A stretch of 34,424 bases of DNA. It comes from a virus. The translations under genes were made by a program, and so were the position numbers. The first letter of the stretch is position 1; every line of letters starts with the position of its first letter. This document shows positions 9,267 through 34,424 of this stretch, in pieces. The DNA lies in the IMG/VR virus record IMGVR_UViG_3300020180_000069, positions 1-34,424 of that record; one strand, given 5' to 3'. Under the pieces are notes generated by a model. That model ran no database searches and was not told the origin of the DNA. It saw only the letters and a program-made list of their open reading frames with translations.

Positions 9267-9565
9267 CAGCCGTCTCCTGTTCCGTCTCCTGTTCCGTATC
9301 CGTCTCCGTCTCCGTCTCCGTATCCTGTTCCGTATCCTGTTCCGTCTCCTGTTCCGTTTCCGTATCCTGTTCCGTATCCGTATCCGTATCCGTCTCCGTA
9401 TCCGTCTCCGAAACCGCTTCCGAAACCGTCTCCTGTTCCGTATCCGTCTCCTGTTCCGTATCCGTATCCTGTTCCGTATCCGTATCCTGTTCCGTATCCG
9501 TATCCGTATCCGTCTCCGTATCTGAATACGCTATCACCAGCACCATGCACGTTTTTATTTTGCAT
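9266..9565 (-). CDS. Gly-dipeptide repeat protein B (99 aa)
   Basis: The ORF starts MQNKNVHGAGDSVFRYG and continues as about 40 Gly-X dipeptides with X mostly Tyr, Thr or Asp, and Phe, Ser or Asn in places. It is encoded by a hexanucleotide array (GGA followed by GAC, TAC or ACA). The start ATG overlaps the stop of copy A as TGATG and has AGGAG seven bases before it. Its own stop forms another TGATG with the next gene. Orientation, ribosome site and coupling favour this frame, although all six frames are open here. No known function; a flexible structural or adhesive Gly-rich peptide is one idea. Confidence 0.5.
   Translation of the reverse strand: MQNKNVHGAGDSVFRYGDGYGYGYGTGYGYGTGYGYGTGDGYGTGDGFGSGFGDGYGDGYGYGYGTGYGNGTGDGTGYGTGYGDGDGDGYGTGDGTGDG
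9270..9520. repeat. Hexanucleotide array 1 (TCC + GTC/GTA/TGT)
   Basis: About 42 consecutive hexamers on the plus strand of the form TCC plus GTC, GTA or TGT, with a few variants (TCCGTT, TCCGAA, and ACC in place of TCC twice near 9412 and 9424). The units are intermixed, not blockwise, as expected from slippage and unequal exchange. No stop codon occurs in any of the six frames inside the array. Confidence 0.95.
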
Positions 9566-9567
9566 CA
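9541..9567. repeat. Boundary repeat, copy 2 (27 bp)
   Basis: This is an identical copy of the element at 8980-9006 and 9774-9800. The similarity extends 20-30 bases further left between copies 1 and 2 (TCTGAATACG then TATCACCAG), showing that the whole unit of boundary plus hexamer array was duplicated. Confidence 0.85.
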
Positions 9568-9798
9568 GCCGTCTCCTGTTCCGTCTCCTGTTCCGTATCC
9601 TTCTCCGTCTCCGTCTCCGTATCCTGTTCCGTATCCTGTTCCGTATCCTGTTCCGTCTCCTGTTCCGTATCCGTATCCGTATCCGTCTCCGTCTCCGTCT
9701 CCTGTTCCGTATCCGTATCCTGTTCCGTATCCGCTCCCGCATCCGTATCCGTATCTGAATACGATATCACCAGCACCATGCACGTTTTTATTTTGCAT
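9565..9798 (-). CDS. Gly-dipeptide repeat protein A (77 aa)
   Basis: This is a paralogue of the ORF at 9266-9565: MQNKNVHGAGDIVFRYG, then about 30 Gly-X dipeptides (Tyr, Asp, Thr, with one Cys, Ser and Glu) ending GDGTGDG. It begins inside the last codons of the DUF6948-type gene (11-base overlap) in a different frame, with only a weak GGA nine bases upstream, and ends in TGATG with copy B. One hexamer near 9736 changes GGA to GGG, silent in this frame. Whether it is translated is unproven. Confidence 0.45.
   Translation of the reverse strand: MQNKNVHGAGDIVFRYGYGCGSGYGTGYGYGTGDGDGDGYGYGYGTGDGTGYGTGYGTGYGDGDGEGYGTGDGTGDG
9570..9752. repeat. Hexanucleotide array 2
   Basis: About 30 hexamers of the same family as array 1 (TCC plus GTC, GTA or TGT; variants TCCTTC, TCCGCT, CCCGCA). 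It is bounded on both sides by the 27-bp boundary repeat. Length differs from array 1, so copy number has changed since duplication. Confidence 0.95.
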
Positions 9799-10388: not shown

Positions 10389-10622
10389 ATGGAAAATAAG
10401 TCACCGAAAACCTACTCAGACGAGACGTGTATCGAAATTTACAATTATGTTTATAAAGATGGTGAGACACCGACAGTGCTTTATGAATTTTACATGCACG
10501 ATATGCCCTATGGAACGGCGAAGGCGAGGGATGGAGATCCTGATAATTGGCTCGCCGGTCGAGTGGAAATGGTTGAGGAAGATTTTTCTGAGGAAATTGA
10601 GATTGGTAGAAATCTGCGTTAA
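10389..10622 (+). CDS. Hypothetical acidic protein (77 aa)
   Basis: This is the first gene of the rightward cluster. It is a small acidic protein rich in Asp, Glu and Tyr with no recognised motif, no signal and no membrane segment; the C-terminus is strongly acidic (EEDFSEEIEIGRN). It may be translated from a leaderless transcript. Small acidic early phage proteins often inhibit or mimic host nucleic-acid-binding factors, but nothing specific supports that here. Confidence 0.55.
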   Translation: MENKSPKTYSDETCIEIYNYVYKDGETPTVLYEFYMHDMPYGTAKARDGDPDNWLAGRVEMVEEDFSEEIEIGRNLR

Positions 10623-10643
10623 CGAATTGAAAGGACCGAAATC

Positions 10644-10943
10644 ATGACTAAAAGCGAAATAGGGGAATTGATTAAGAACTTTGAGAATCTTCGGATTGAG
10701 ATTGAGAAGATGAACGAGCATAAGCGGTCGATTCAAGAAAAGCTGACTCGGCTTGTCGAGGATGGGGCTACTTATGGGGATTTTAAAACCACTCTTAAGA
10801 TCTACCCAGAAGGCAATAAGTATTTTTCATGGTCTAAGGCAGAGGAAGGACTAACGGAAGCGGTTTTAGAGAAGATTAGGCCCTTTTTAAAGGTCTCCGA
10901 GAGAGTGGTTTTAAGCTTTAAATCTATGGTGAGTTATGACTGA
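10644..10943 (+). CDS. Hypothetical protein with N-terminal coiled coil (99 aa)
   Basis: Residues 1-37 form a charged helix with coiled-coil character (ELIKNFENLRIEIEKMNEHK). Residues 40-99 alternate strands and helices (YGDFKTTLKIYPEGNKYFSW). A GAAAGGA site lies upstream of the ATG. The end overlaps the next ORF by eight bases in another frame. No family recognised. Confidence 0.6.
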   Translation: MTKSEIGELIKNFENLRIEIEKMNEHKRSIQEKLTRLVEDGATYGDFKTTLKIYPEGNKYFSWSKAEEGLTEAVLEKIRPFLKVSERVVLSFKSMVSYD

Positions 10944-11100
10944 GGTTAGGAATGCCCCTAAAGGGCTCTATTCGCCCCTAGAAATTGTGGAGATGGTGAG
11001 CGCCATGAAACTTAGCCTAGGTAGAGAAATAAGCCGTGAGGAGGCTCTGGAAGCTTTAGAAGCGATGGATGAGTTTAGGGTGCGTAATGGGCTCGATTGA
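10936..11100 (+). CDS. Small helical protein (54 aa)
   Basis: ATG at 10936 overlaps the end of the preceding gene; the frame encodes a compact amphipathic helical protein (IVEMVSAMKLSLGREISREEALEALEAMDE split over two helices). The end overlaps the next gene start by 14 bases. GGTGAG a few bases upstream serves as ribosome site. Overlaps on both sides and good composition support it as a real gene, function unknown. Confidence 0.5.
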   Translation: MTEVRNAPKGLYSPLEIVEMVSAMKLSLGREISREEALEALEAMDEFRVRNGLD

Positions 11101-11374
11101 GGCTTTAGATAGCTATAAGGACCGTTATGAGTTTGGGGTATGGCTAAACCTGGATAAGGATGGGGGCTTTATTGTGGAAGCGCATCCGAAGAAGTTTAGG
11201 CATATTTTCTTTCGGATCTCGAAAGAGGCTTTGATGGAAAGTGATTTATTACAGGATAAAGACAAGGCGTATTTAGAAATGCAAAAGACTAATCCTGATT
11301 TTTTACCTGGATGGAAGACCTTTGCTTATGCGAAGGGTAGAACGTTTTTTAATTTAGCGAAGGAGGGAAAATGA
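11087..11374 (+). CDS. Hypothetical protein (95 aa)
   Basis: This is a mixed alpha/beta protein (FGVWLNLDKDGGFIVEA, then HIFFRISKEAL). The ATG at 11087 is preferred over one at 11069 because TTAGGG lies about six bases before it; the longer form adds six residues. The end overlaps the following micro-ORF as ATGA. No domain recognised. Confidence 0.6.
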   Translation: MGSIEALDSYKDRYEFGVWLNLDKDGGFIVEAHPKKFRHIFFRISKEALMESDLLQDKDKAYLEMQKTNPDFLPGWKTFAYAKGRTFFNLAKEGK

Positions 11375-11418
11375 AAAAGAAATCGAATTATGAGAAGCTA
11401 AGGAAGATCGTTTTTTAA
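11371..11418 (+). CDS. Micro-ORF with strong ribosome site (15 aa)
   Basis: ATG overlaps the preceding stop as ATGA and is preceded by AAGGAGGGAAA. The product is MKKKSNYEKLRKIVF, very basic. It could be a true micro-protein, a leader for the next gene, or the stump of a longer gene. Size prevents certainty. Confidence 0.3.
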   Translation: MKKKSNYEKLRKIVF

Positions 11419-11441
11419 TTTATTAAAATTTGGTAGAGAGA

Positions 11442-11639
11442 ATGAGTATGAAACTCAAAAAGTCTAAAATCGTTTCTTTCTCTATGCCTGAAAGCCTCTA
11501 TCAAAAGTTTTGGGATGTAATTCCAGCAAACAAAAAATCCTCTTTTTTTGTATGGGCTCTAAGCCGCCTTGATGAAAAGGACCTCTGCAAATTTCTTGAA
11601 CTTTGTTTTAAACAACAAAAAGACCGAGGGGCCATTTAG
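11442..11639 (+). CDS. Ribbon-helix-helix-like protein (65 aa)
   Basis: The order KSKIVSFSMPESLYQKFWD, a turn, then KKSSFFVWALSRL matches the strand-helix-helix of MetJ/Arc/CopG-type DNA-binding proteins (strand with alternating hydrophobics, PESLY helix cap). ATG at 11442 or 11448 follows a GAGAG sequence; a TTG at 11430 would add four residues. It is likely a small transcriptional regulator of the phage early region. Confidence 0.6.
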   Translation: MSMKLKKSKIVSFSMPESLYQKFWDVIPANKKSSFFVWALSRLDEKDLCKFLELCFKQQKDRGAI

Positions 11640-11646
11640 GGGTTAT

Positions 11647-11673
11647 CCCGCCTTAGAAGGCACCAATAGCGAG
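11647..11673 (+). ncRNA. Stem-loop element, copy 1, just upstream of a start codon
   Basis: CCCGC (11647-11651) and GCGAG (11669-11673) can pair except for one mismatch, with a 17-base loop beginning CTTAGAAG. The 3-prime arm lies at the ribosome-site position of the ATG at 11675. A second copy with the same loop length and a compensated stem is at 11932-11958. Confidence 0.4.
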
Positions 11674-11674
11674 A

Positions 11675-11905
11675 ATGGCAATTTTTTTAACAATGATTGA
11701 TAGATTAATCATTTTAGCGAAGGCATTTCAGCTAAGCATTCCTTATGTTTGGCATTACCTTCAAAGCCTTCGTTATGTTGAAGGTCAGCAATTTCCAAAA
11801 GATCCTGGCAAGGCGAATCATACCGCTGAATTTAAGCGAGAAGTTCTTTTAGGCAAATTTCTTTGGTCTTTAAAGTGTGAGTGTGGTTGGGAGAAAAAAG
11901 TTTAG
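11675..11905 (+). CDS. Hypothetical protein (76 aa)
   Basis: The N-terminal half is hydrophobic (MAIFLTMIDRLIILAKAFQL) but amphipathic, not a clear membrane segment. The C-terminus contains a Cys pair in KCECGWEKK, resembling the first half of a zinc knuckle. Its start is embedded after a stem-loop that could control translation. No family recognised; it ends convergent to a minus-strand gene pair. Confidence 0.5.
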   Translation: MAIFLTMIDRLIILAKAFQLSIPYVWHYLQSLRYVEGQQFPKDPGKANHTAEFKREVLLGKFLWSLKCECGWEKKV

Positions 11906-11998: not shown

Positions 11999-12199
11999 CT
12001 ACCACTGCCAGCCCTGGAATAAGTATAAACTAATAAACAGAATTATAAATCCAAGAAAAATGCCTGTTACGACGCCGAGCAAGAAAGAGTTTTTCTTTTG
12101 CTCTAGGCGATACTTAAAAAGAAGCCTTGTCGTCTCATCCTCGTCTAAAAACTTCCGGCCAACGAGGTCAACCTTGGGCTCTAAACTTCTCGCATCCAT
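11999..12199 (-). CDS. Single-pass membrane protein (66 aa)
   Basis: Residues 1-35 are charged and soluble; residues 38-61 form a strong membrane segment (FLLGVVTGIFLGFIILFISL) and the C-terminus is FQGWQW. This tail-anchored topology would place the charged N-terminus in the cytoplasm. Its start overlaps the end of the 99-aa gene by 19 bases. These two genes form an isolated minus-strand pair inside the rightward cluster. Function unknown; holin, exclusion and host-takeover roles are all possible. Confidence 0.6.
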   Translation of the reverse strand: MDARSLEPKVDLVGRKFLDEDETTRLLFKYRLEQKKNSFLLGVVTGIFLGFIILFISLYLFQGWQW

Positions 12200-12480
12200 G
12201 CCATAGTTCCCATGTTTTTTGATTTAAAATTAGAAATTAAACCTGGGTTAAATTCTCCGAGCACGATTTGATGGCAAGGCTCTTCCTCTTTATCAAAAAG
12301 GATGGCAATTATCTTTCCCCTTTCGACATCTAAAGAAATCTGGATTTTGTCTTGAGAGGCTAGATAAAGCCATCCTGTTAGGGTTTTAAGATCCGAAAGA
12401 ATGTGAGTTTTTATCTTGAGCTCAGATTCCAAGACCTTATTTAAAAGCTTACGATTTAGATCAACTTGAAAAGAGCCCAT
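12181..12480 (-). CDS. Hypothetical protein of the isolated minus-strand pair (99 aa)
   Basis: Residues 1-45 are helical and basic, then a beta-rich C-terminal half (WLYLASQDKIQISLDVERGK, IIAILFDKEEEP) ends in MAWMREV. ATG at 12480 is chosen; a TTG at 12504 would add eight residues (107 aa). Neither has a strong ribosome site. It overlaps the membrane protein gene at its end, suggesting joint expression. No domain recognised. Confidence 0.5.
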   Translation of the reverse strand: MGSFQVDLNRKLLNKVLESELKIKTHILSDLKTLTGWLYLASQDKIQISLDVERGKIIAILFDKEEEPCHQIVLGEFNPGLISNFKSKNMGTMAWMREV

Positions 12481-12567
12481 AAGTTTATTTTGAAGCCAAT
12501 CCAATTAAATTGAAAGTACCGGATTTGAGAGGAACGAAAACCTGCCAAAGGTTAATTGAAAATGCCG

Positions 12568-13185
12568 CTGCTTTTAAACCCCTAAAAAACTATAACAAAA
12601 CCCCTTGAAGCCAGGGTCAACACCCTTGGAAAGTAGAATAAATTCTTTCGCCTTCTTCTTTTTTTTACTAATAAATTAAAAGTGTTTCAGTTTTCAAGAT
12701 CTTCAATAAAATCATCACTACTTCACAGCGCACGAGCTCCGAGGTGGCTTTTTTTACCTTTTTTTAGAGAACTTTTAAACAGAGCTTTAACTTTCACTGC
12801 TTTTAAATCCCTAAAAAATTGTTAATCAAACCCCTTAAAGCCCGAGTCAACACCCTTGGAGATTGAAATAAATTCTTTCGCCTTTTTCTATTTTTTATTG
12901 GTAAATTAAATGAGTGTTTTACCTTTGAAGATCTTTACTAAAGTTGTCAAAATTTCACAGCACACGAGCTTCAAAGAGCTTTTTTTTACTTTTTTTTAGA
13001 GAGCTTTAAATAGAGCTTTCACTTTCAACTCCTATTACTAAAGTCCTCGATATTTCCAAGCGCCCCTAGTTCTTTTCTTTTTTTTTATTCTTTTTTTTAG
13101 ATCTTTCAACTCGCATCACTATTTCGCAGCACACGAGCTTCGAGGTGGCTTTTTTTTAGCTTTTCTTTTCTTTAGGAAGGGAACT
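12568..13185. repeat. Diverged 229-bp tandem repeats (two full, one partial) in a gene-free region
   Basis: Unit 1 is 12568-12796, unit 2 starts at 12797 and runs to about 13025, both beginning CTGCTTTTAAA and containing GTCAACACCCTTGGA, ATAAATTCTTTCGCCTT and CACGAGCT. A third, shortened unit (about 13026-13185) keeps only the second half, with CAGCACACGAGCTTCGAGG then GTGGC and T-runs. Each ends in a short hairpin and a tract of seven or more T. No ORF is convincing. Possible roles: clustered terminators, a replication origin with repeated sites, or a repeated regulatory RNA. Confidence 0.75.
12948..12982 (+). terminator. Hairpin plus T-tract inside repeat unit 2
   Basis: AGCTT-CAAA-GAGCT followed immediately by a run of T resembles a short intrinsic terminator for the plus strand. 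The equivalent positions of the other two units (near 12730-12755 and 13130-13160) have weaker stems with the same T-runs. Confidence 0.35.
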
Positions 13186-13194
13186 TTGAGTCTC

Positions 13195-13800
13195 TTTCAA
13201 GCTGGTAGCTTTTCACCCTGGAGGGCGGGAACGGCTGTTTGGGGACAGAAGGGTTCTAGCAAAATATGATTTACTTTAAACTACTTCCTCCGTCTCAAGA
13301 CCGTGTGGGGAAAGACCCACTCTGGTAATAACTAGAACCATCTAACAGTGATCGTCCGCTTGAACCGGAATGTTTCCTTTTGCCAACCCTTGGAAAACAA
13401 AAGTATTATCGGGAGTACTCCCGTCCCAGTCCAATCATCTTCTACTGCTCAGGATGTGGGATGCCAATCAATCTGCTCCGAATATCTCACCCTCTCGGGT
13501 CGGTATCCGTATGTTTGCCGGTGCTGCACAAGGTTTAAAAGGTTTAAAGCTTAGCTTCATCGCTCCCTTGTGTCGGCCCTACCGGATACCCCAACTCGAG
13601 CTCTGCTAAACTTAGTGAAAAAAAAATTAGTAATTCTGGTGCCGATCTGGCAATCTCAGGCCTACTGTTTTTTTACACAAAAGAATGTAACCCTAGGAGC
13701 ATTGGCTTTCGCAAGCTAATTTCCTCGGGTGCCCAGAAATGGCTTAAAACCCGATTAAGGCTATTTAGAGGTGTGCAAACATTTGCACAGTAGCCAACAG
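13195..13800 (+). ncRNA. Candidate large structured non-coding RNA (about 600 nt)
   Basis: No credible gene lies here, yet inverted repeats are dense. Pairings visible by eye: 13252-13259 with 13332-13339 (8 bp) enclosing 13305-13309 with 13316-13320; 13502-13509 with 13583-13590, then 13517-13520 with 13574-13577, then 13526-13533 with 13566-13573, nested as one interrupted 20-bp helix; palindrome 13410-13423; 13489-13492 with 13497-13500; 13640-13643 with 13649-13652; 13691-13698 with 13722-13729 around 13702-13708 with 13713-13719; and 13759-13763 with 13791-13795 enclosing an 8-bp hairpin at 13772-13789. This looks like a large ornate RNA of the kind known from phages (GOLLD, ROOL, HEARO). 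I cannot assign a class; strand is inferred from loop sequences and flanking genes. Confidence 0.6.
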
Positions 13801-13845
13801 AAGGTTTTCATTTTCTATAAATTCGGATCAATTTAAACTTTCTGG

Positions 13846-14262
13846 GTGGGAAATCCGTTTTTTATTACTTTGAGGCTTTTTCCTGTAGCTCCAACCACTA
13901 ATAATTTGTATGTGAGCGTCGGAAAACGACGAGTGCCTTCTAAGCAACTAAAAATCTATAAACAGCTCGTACACACTTGGTATCTTCAAAACCTGAGGGA
14001 AGTAAACGAGGCCGCCCTTTATCTGAAAGGAAAGGGGCCCTTAACGCTCGATCTGATATGGCGTGGACCAAGGCTTAGGTTTTATACAAAAGATGACCGT
14101 GTCAGGCGATTAGATGCCTCTAACCGCATCAAGGCGTGCGAAGATTCTTTATGCCAGCTTTTATCCATCGATGACTCCGTGTTTTTTAGATGCTCTATCG
14201 AAAAAAGAGTTATAGAAGATAGGCATGAAGAATCAATTGACGTTTTAATAACGAAATATTAA
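13846..14262 (+). CDS. rusA: RusA-like Holliday junction resolvase (138 aa)
   Basis: The endonuclease would cut four-way junctions during phage replication and recombination. The N-terminal segment LFPVAPTTNNLY followed by GKRRVPSKQLKIYK fits the RusA fold, and the C-terminal half carries RRLDASNRIKACEDSL (residues 87-102) and SIDDSVFF (107-114). These correspond to the RusA metal-binding Asp motifs DxDN and DD. The first is atypical: ASN replaces the usual D-N spacing, leaving D90 as the clear acidic residue. A GTG at 13846 gives the natural N-terminus; no strong ribosome site is seen. Paired with the annealing protein at 14510, it forms a recombination module. Confidence 0.8.
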   Translation: MGNPFFITLRLFPVAPTTNNLYVSVGKRRVPSKQLKIYKQLVHTWYLQNLREVNEAALYLKGKGPLTLDLIWRGPRLRFYTKDDRVRRLDASNRIKACEDSLCQLLSIDDSVFFRCSIEKRVIEDRHEESIDVLITKY

Positions 14263-14509: not shown

Positions 14510-15172
14510 ATGTTTATTGATTCAGTAACTTTGTTAAATGAGATAGCGAAGGCTCTAGTAAGCGCTCAAAAAGAAATCTCGGCTGCTGAGAAGGATAAAA
14601 CTAATCCTCACTTCAGAAGCGACTACGCGACCCTTCAAAGCATTTGGGAAGCTTGCAGAGACTCTTTAACTAAAAATAATCTATGCGTGACTCAAACTAT
14701 CTGCTCGCTTGATGGAAAGCCTTTTCTTAACACAAAACTCATCCACATCTCAGGTCAAAGCATTGAGAGCTCTTGCCCGCTTTTAATGGGTCAGCCGACC
14801 ATGCAAGCCTTGGGCTCGGCTCTTACCTACGCAAGACGCTACGCACTAGCGGCAATCGTCGGAGTGGTGATCAAAGAAGACGAATCAGACGATGACGGGC
14901 AAATCGCCAAAAATCAAAGTGAGCGTGCCATTCTACGTCCGGAGCTTCCTCCTAAAACTTTCGCCAAACAAGCACACGTTTTAAAGCTTTCCGGCATTCA
15001 ACAAAAAGAGATTTTTCGATTATCAAACCAGTTGGGCTGGAAGCCTAACGAAGTGGCCGACTTACTAACCCGCCTAGGGCAAAGCCGCTGGGAATCTGTA
15101 CCAGCCGATGAGTTTGATCTTATAATTAAAACTTTAAAAGGCGATGCTTTGGTTGCTAAAAAAAAACCATAG
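14510..15172 (+). CDS. erf: Erf-family single-strand annealing protein (220 aa)
   Basis: It anneals complementary single strands in phage recombination and in genome circularisation. Family hallmarks are NPHFRSDYATLQSIWEACRD at residues 32-51 and QALGSALTYARRYALAAI at 99-116, followed by acidic EDESDDDG at 123-130. The C-terminal region (about 155-215) is a separate helical segment containing QKEIFRLSNQLGWKPNEV, as often found appended to phage annealing proteins. A TAGGAG site lies eight bases upstream of the ATG. Its presence fits replication through concatemers and circular permutation. Confidence 0.92.
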   Translation: MFIDSVTLLNEIAKALVSAQKEISAAEKDKTNPHFRSDYATLQSIWEACRDSLTKNNLCVTQTICSLDGKPFLNTKLIHISGQSIESSCPLLMGQPTMQALGSALTYARRYALAAIVGVVIKEDESDDDGQIAKNQSERAILRPELPPKTFAKQAHVLKLSGIQQKEIFRLSNQLGWKPNEVADLLTRLGQSRWESVPADEFDLIIKTLKGDALVAKKKP

Positions 15173-33657: not shown

Positions 33658-33891
33658 TTATTCTTCTTCGTACTCGGATGAGTCATCAAGAGACTTACAT
33701 ATCACTACGAAATCTTTTAATGCGCTCACAAAAGCCATAGCATCTTTCGATTCCATAGCTTTCATAGCTTCTTCACCGGCACTCATAAGCCCTGGGTCCA
33801 TTTCTTCCTTAGGTTCCCCTTCGGATTCCATTTTCTTAGGGCCTGCTAAAATCAAAGCCGCCATTTTCTTAGGCTCATCTGCCATCATCAT
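33658..33891 (-). CDS. Small acidic head-region protein (77 aa)
   Basis: Met/Glu/Lys-rich, helical and acidic, ending DSSEYEEE. Three consecutive ATG codons start the frame with AAGGAG seven bases before the first. It lies between the decoration protein and the connector. Small acidic helical proteins here may be head-completion factors or scaffold-like; no family recognised. Its first ten codons are repeated at 1-30. Confidence 0.6.
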   Translation of the reverse strand: MMMADEPKKMAALILAGPKKMESEGEPKEEMDPGLMSAGEEAMKAMESKDAMAFVSALKDFVVICKSLDDSSEYEEE

Positions 33892-33905
33892 AAAAAGACT
33901 CCTTC

Positions 33906-34274
33906 TTATGGTTGAATGGTTGAGTTCTTAAGAACAAGTGTTACATGAATTTTACATGCTGCACTTGGATTTGTTGGCGTCGCTGCTGTATTCAAATTAA
34001 TCACTACTAGTTTCGTTGTGGAAACCGTTTGGCTTTTAACTTGAGCTACTAAATCAACAGCAACCGCTGCTTCTACTGAAACTAAACAAGCTAACAATTC
34101 AGGATAAGTGTCTTGAAGTGTTAGCGTATATTCGCCAGTTCCAGTTTTACTGAATGTTCCACCTAAAAGCGTTTGAGATAAAATTGAAGCGTCTGTGTGG
34201 ATACTTACGAGTCCAGACAGAATCTTAATTTCTTTATCGAGCGCTTGGAGTGGTCCAAATATTCTACTTGCCAT
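33906..34274 (-). CDS. Putative minor head / capsid decoration protein, allele 2 (122 aa)
   Basis: Same length and reading frame as the gene at 45-413, with nine amino-acid differences (including SS to GP near residue 7-8, V16I, T42S, T62A, T66S, A71V, L79V, A96T). Flanking genes are the same as for allele 1. In a circular genome only one of the two need be present; alternatively both are real and tandem. Confidence 0.65.
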   Translation of the reverse strand: MASRIFGPLQALDKEIKILSGLVSIHTDASILSQTLLGGTFSKTGTGEYTLTLQDTYPELLACLVSVEAAVAVDLVAQVKSQTVSTTKLVVINLNTAATPTNPSAACKIHVTLVLKNSTIQP

Positions 34275-34290
34275 CTTTATATCTCCTTAG

Positions 34291-34322
34291 AAAAAACAGG
34301 GGCTTTTTAGGGCCCCGTTTTT
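34291..34322 (-). terminator. Hairpin after the capsid gene (second copy)
   Basis: Same structure as 430-460, with GGGGC paired to GCCCC and T/A-rich flanks; two bases of the stem region and the A-run length differ. Confidence 0.55.
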
Positions 34323-34330
34323 AATTACCA

Positions 34331-34424
34331 TTAGCTAGCTAAAGTTACTCGACCATTCCAGCCAGGAGCGCGGCAACCAAGTTGGGCATAGTATCCAACT
34401 CGAACTTCTACGCTGTCTGCTGTA
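34331..34424 (-). CDS. Partial: C-terminal end of major capsid protein
   Basis: Identical in sequence to 469-562, the last 31 codons including the TAA stop of the major capsid gene. It is truncated by the right contig end and represents the same gene as 469-1674. Confidence 0.85.
   Translation of the reverse strand, partial: TADSVEVRVGYYAQLGCRAPGWNGRVTLAS

Follow-up and report, generated by a model that had tools for sequence, protein, structure and literature searches.

A stretch of about 650 bases between two divergently oriented gene blocks of an uncultured phage raises the question of whether it encodes a large structured RNA of a new class or serves as a control region for the early genes beside it. 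The window, that is, the whole stretch of DNA analyzed, corresponds to a virus record in IMG/VR and is 34,424 bases long. Its two ends (1-562 and 33862-34424) match each other at 89-98% in the aligned parts, and the record was therefore taken as a complete, circularly permuted phage genome of ~33.9 kb from an uncultured lineage. In the record, the copies of the terminal overlap differ slightly from each other.

Genomic setting of the stretch

The genes of the window include those for MCP, portal, large terminase, the ERF annealing protein, and the RusA resolvase. Searches with the window MCP and portal found nothing in the collection of phage isolates, and the listed matches of the terminase are only 22-24% identical. 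Recognized DNA-metabolism genes are limited to ERF and RusA, plus a ParB-like protein; none of the window proteins tested was recognized as a helicase, polymerase, or replication initiator, and the whole window holds no tRNA genes. A degenerate 12/18-bp tandem repeat of the CCGTATCCGTCT type, with open frames on both strands, occupies ~490 bases at 9270-9755 of the window, and similar GGCTACGGAGATGG repeats are present at ~3870-3790 in a relative, L075.

The flagged stretch sits in a 1.34-kb gap from which gene blocks diverge, the bordering gene at 12181-12504 reading leftward and the RusA-ERF operon rightward (Table 1). T-rich repeats fill the left half of the gap. Their hairpin and T-run units are conserved within the repeats and face rightward, and may serve to insulate the gap from the genes at 10389-11905, which read rightward.

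Table 1 Features of the gap and its bordering genes (window coordinates; promoters are predictions)
Feature	Position	Strand	Details
Leftward gene bordering the gap	12181..12504	-	107 aa, without family
T-rich repeat, 231-bp, 2.5 copies, left half of gap	12572..13170	+	hairpin and T-run at 12718-12755 and 13119-13157, rightward terminator-like
Noncoding stretch between T-rich repeats and RusA	13190..13846		no period-3, no family or Rfam matches; fold z -3.56 (+) / -3.67 (-)
Best-defined folded domain, closed by 13598-13591/13205-13198	13198..13598	-	MFE z -2.9; p>0.9 pairs 0.168 per nt
Predicted sigma70-like promoter, TTGCCA-18-TATTAT	13380..13409	+	10/12 consensus; best score in gap, above window top-20 threshold
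Perfect 14-bp palindrome CGGGAGTACTCCCG	13410..13423		directly 3' of promoter-like site; read from sequence
Predicted weak sigma70-like promoter, TTGCCA-18-TAATTT	13624..13653	-	points into minus-strand domain; above window top-50 threshold
Terminator-like hairpin (13628-13667) followed by T7	13628..13674	+	dG -10.8 (+), -9.4 (-)
17-bp interrupted hairpin	13690..13730		GCGA tetraloop on minus-strand reading; p 0.95
115-nt closed domain CCCAGAAA...TTTCTGGG	13732..13846		minus-strand helix p 0.96; ends at predicted RusA start codon
RusA-type resolvase, first gene of rightward operon	13846..14262	+	PF05866 E 5.7e-7; phrog_34
ERF single-strand annealing protein	14510..15172	+	PF04404 E 1.3e-22

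The stretch is noncoding and matches no Rfam family

The stretch at 13195-13845, about 650 bases, is truly noncoding. The original prediction, made from the sequence, had seen no convincing gene in 13195-13800, and this was borne out: the longest open reading frames encode 68-79 aa, and neither PHROG nor Pfam matches were found for the short frames even at E<=10. Period-3 power is 0.8 in the stretch versus 2.0-7.1 in the window genes tested, no codon-like pattern was seen that would refute the original prediction, and the relatives hold no convincing translated trace of the stretch. One short frame encodes a CxxC-like peptide, which was considered as a coding candidate and rejected, as it has neither a family nor a translated trace. 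The G+C content is 47-52% over 13200-13600, compared with 28-40% in the T-rich repeats to the left.

Rfam searches, which included GOLLD, ROOL, HEARO, OLE, and group I/II introns, gave no match at the gathering threshold, and at E<=10 neither strand of 13195-13845 contained a match. The claimed fit to GOLLD, ROOL, or HEARO by size and context is thus unsupported, and the statement that no known class could be matched agrees with the Rfam search, which finds no family within the stretch. A group I or II intron is likewise unsupported, since there was no Rfam match at E<=10 and the stretch lies between genes, with no interrupted gene.

Inverted repeats and folding

Inverted repeats in the stretch had been described as abundant and consistently nested, but their count is near the shuffle level. 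Perfect repeats of at least 6 bp number 16 versus 12.1+-3.4 in shuffles (a count equaled or exceeded in 30 of 200 shuffles), those of at least 7 bp number 8 versus 2.9, three of the eight being one A-run/T-run pair, and those of at least 8 bp number 2 versus 0.8. The count is therefore not evidence for a structured RNA. The interrupted helix named at 13502-13533/13566-13590 does exist, consisting of 8 bp (GGTATCCG/CGGATACC) and 7 bp (CACAAGG/CCTTGTG), with pair probabilities (13502..13590) of 0.99-1.0 on the minus strand and of 0.96 and 0.83 on the plus strand. The long-range 8-bp repeat GGTTCTAG/CTAGAACC (13252-13259/13332-13339) is exact in its letters but absent from the helices with p>0.6 on either strand, and its bases (13252..13339) are taken up by better competing helices. 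As this example shows, counting inverted repeats overstates the case when used alone, and folding controls resolved by strand are required.

Folding against shuffled controls, for which the original prediction had also called, showed the stretch to be moderately more stable, with z about -3.6 for 13190-13845 on both strands (Table 1). Most runs on 13195-13840 gave z of -2.4 to -2.6; the more negative value of 13190-13845 is attributed to the closing helix 13732-13739/13839-13846, which is lost in the shorter cut. On the minus strand, the p>0.9 pairs of 13845-13190 had z +3.1. The region 13610-13845 folded with z of -3.6 to -3.8 on both strands.

Coding sequence from this genome, cut into 416-nt control windows, likewise folded better than shuffles (mean z -0.8), and 5 of 48 such windows reached the MFE z of the core domain, 13198-13598, so that its stability alone is not exceptional. 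For minus-strand 13605-13190, none of the 48 coding controls had a density of p>0.9 pairs as high (0.168 per nt) or an ensemble diversity as low (0.133 per nt). Unpaired bases of the minus-strand core domain are 47% A (z about +2.4 versus shuffles), whereas the plus strand has no such excess. These figures are suggestive only, as the minus strand and the domain borders were picked after inspection. The well-defined fold is that of the minus strand, a distinction between strands that the original prediction had not drawn.

Transcription signals

Matches to promoters occur in a chance number overall (3 found versus 2.4 expected). The palindrome at 13410-13423 lies in an operator-like position and may serve as an operator. 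The terminator-like hairpin is possibly bidirectional, given a T9 run at 13626-13618 on its opposite side. Terminator-like sites are not rare in this genome, with 15 on the plus strand that have T6 or more and dG <= -9.

Counterpart gaps in related phages

A scan with MCP yielded 55 related loci. Among the 38 larger records searched, G013 alone also had a RusA match, and its head genes, ERF, and RusA are syntenic with those of the window (MCP 72%, TerL 55%, ERF 48%, and RusA 28-30%). Across the RusA, ERF, TerL, and MCP scans, only G013 has a counterpart gap directly beside RusA (L021 1066-1752), which is noncoding and has the same size and place as the window stretch. Alignment of the window stretch with this gap gave no alignable similarity. 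A 13-nt match to L021 on the same strand, AGCAGYAGAAGAT, was judged to be chance (BLAST E 1.8, no alignment signal, and a motif that recurs elsewhere). The G013 gap folds better on the strand opposite RusA, with z of -3.2 to -3.7 and unpaired A at z about +2.2, and in L021 it ends, before RusA, in a strong rightward terminator (dG -22.4, T7) with an overlapping promoter-like site. The clade of L021 is populated (MCP 94-95%, DNA 77-83%), and no clade contig fetched extends to the gap.

In a third relative, L103, the gap before the early operon spans 816 bases, with RusA further down that operon. This gap folds weakly (z -1.3 to -1.9), and a strong hairpin (dG -21) followed by a T-rich tail precedes the operon. 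The window is arranged in the same way as L021 and L103, with a weaker hairpin (dG -10.8, T7). Genes for DUF559 (Vsr-like) nucleases adjoin or lie near the noncoding gap in both relatives (L021 2120-2674 and L103 6023-6409), and none was recognized there in the window.

Viral and genome scans revealed no relative closer than G013, and blastn of the stretch found nothing in phages and plasmids. A direct DNA pattern scan with an 18-mer returned three contigs without further similarity, and the genome scan with MCP returned one distant contig only. Rfam at a relaxed threshold gave only chance matches for the window stretch and the L021 and L103 gaps, and gathering-threshold scans of the other relatives gave nothing. 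In the relative G016, a gene-free segment of 600 nt (L072 5400-5994) lies inside a leftward operon and folds with z of -6.0/-6.7; this is partly explained by diverged direct repeats, and the segment has no Rfam match.

Interpretation of the stretch

Divergent operons, a noncoding gap, and a terminator before the early operon form an anatomy that the window shares with its relatives and that favors a structured leader or an attenuator, set among divergent promoters. We tentatively prefer the reading that the stretch is a divergent noncoding control region, in which the rightward transcript is a structured leader of the RusA-ERF operon. This transcript would start inside the stretch, where the promoter-like site at 13380-13409 is followed by the 14-bp palindrome at the expected start, and it would form a structured leader containing the terminator-like hairpin at 13628-13674 and the closed stem that ends at the RusA start codon. 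Together, this hairpin and stem may attenuate or time early gene expression, while a leftward transcript would carry the well-folded domain of the minus strand, either as a leader that is not translated or as an RNA in its own right. Transcription at the stretch, its direction, and attenuation are what we infer from these signals. The fold z of about -3.6 supports the leader, as does the placement of the RusA start where a stem ends. Against it, the terminator-like hairpin of the window is modest, and the composition and ensemble definition of 13198-13598 favor the minus strand and not the leader strand. A leader would point to RNA-level timing of the recombination genes.

The clean minus-strand fold keeps in play a discrete large structured noncoding RNA of 400-650 nt, which would start at about 13617 or 13846 and be read leftward from the minus strand, belong to a class outside Rfam, and act as a stable trans RNA or in an RNA assembly. 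It could explain why the pair density and low ensemble diversity of minus-strand 13605-13190 go beyond 48 of 48 coding controls, why the unpaired A fraction is 0.47, and why the full 13845-13190 reaches z -3.67 with an excess of p>0.9 pairs; the better fold of the G013 gap on the strand opposite RusA agrees with it as well. However, we found no sequence or structure homolog that could reveal covarying stems, the predicted promoter is weak, a minus-strand transcript from 13846 would be stopped at the T9 run, and the strand and borders were selected after looking, which makes this reading rather doubtful. It is also distinctly unlikely that the lineage keeps, between its divergent operons, a new phage RNA class of 400-650 nt on the strand opposite the early operon, fast-evolving in sequence and constant in position. 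The data do not suffice to establish a new giant RNA class, and an ordinary control region with promoters and a structured leader is more likely than a proven new giant RNA. If confirmed, a discrete RNA would be a further class of giant RNA, encoded by a phage lineage that is uncultured and has no isolates.

The same locus could be promoter and operator DNA without functional RNA structure, in which phage regulator sites lie between divergent promoters and folding is incidental. Divergent promoters are expected here, the palindrome follows a good promoter-like site, the number of inverted repeats is near chance, an equally good fold is reached by 5 of 48 coding windows, and the sequence is not conserved in the syntenic relative. 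Nevertheless, 650 nt would be a lot of sequence for a compact genome to devote to operators alone, the minus-strand fold definition exceeds controls, and the overall z is -3.6; we think this account is probably not the correct one. ColE1 RNAII is a structured transcript that primes replication, and by analogy the stretch might be a replication origin, perhaps primed in that manner. The region is gene-poor and beside T-rich repeats, GC skew changes sign near 12-13 kb, and the short list of recognized DNA-metabolism genes, with no initiator among them, would fit such a role. Yet DnaA-box matches are at chance level (3 found versus 3.25 expected), gene direction also accounts for the skew change, and many window genes are without assignment; we regard an origin as very unlikely. 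Least probable of all is a remnant of decayed genes, which the CxxC-like peptide might suggest, given that no family or translated trace was found and that G+C and folding are unlike neutral decay.

Comparison with known systems

GOLLD and ROOL often occur near tRNA islands and are supported by extensive covariation (PMC12286853). The stretch resembles GOLLD, ROOL, and OLE in being large, structured, and noncoding, and GOLLD and ROOL are likewise encoded by phages or prophages (PMC12286853). However, it differs from all three in having no Rfam match, nearby tRNA, or recognizable conserved region, and from GOLLD and ROOL in lying between divergent operons and not near tRNA islands. The put RNA of HK022 mediates RNA-based antitermination of early genes (PMC9378689). 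Its position upstream of early phage genes is comparable to that of the stretch, a likeness that is an analogy of place only. Phage divergent control regions with leader attenuators are known as a kind, and the stretch shares with them divergent promoter-like sites, a palindrome, and, before the first early gene, a terminator-like hairpin. Unlike a bare operator region, however, it is longer (650 nt) and better folded than such a region needs to be.
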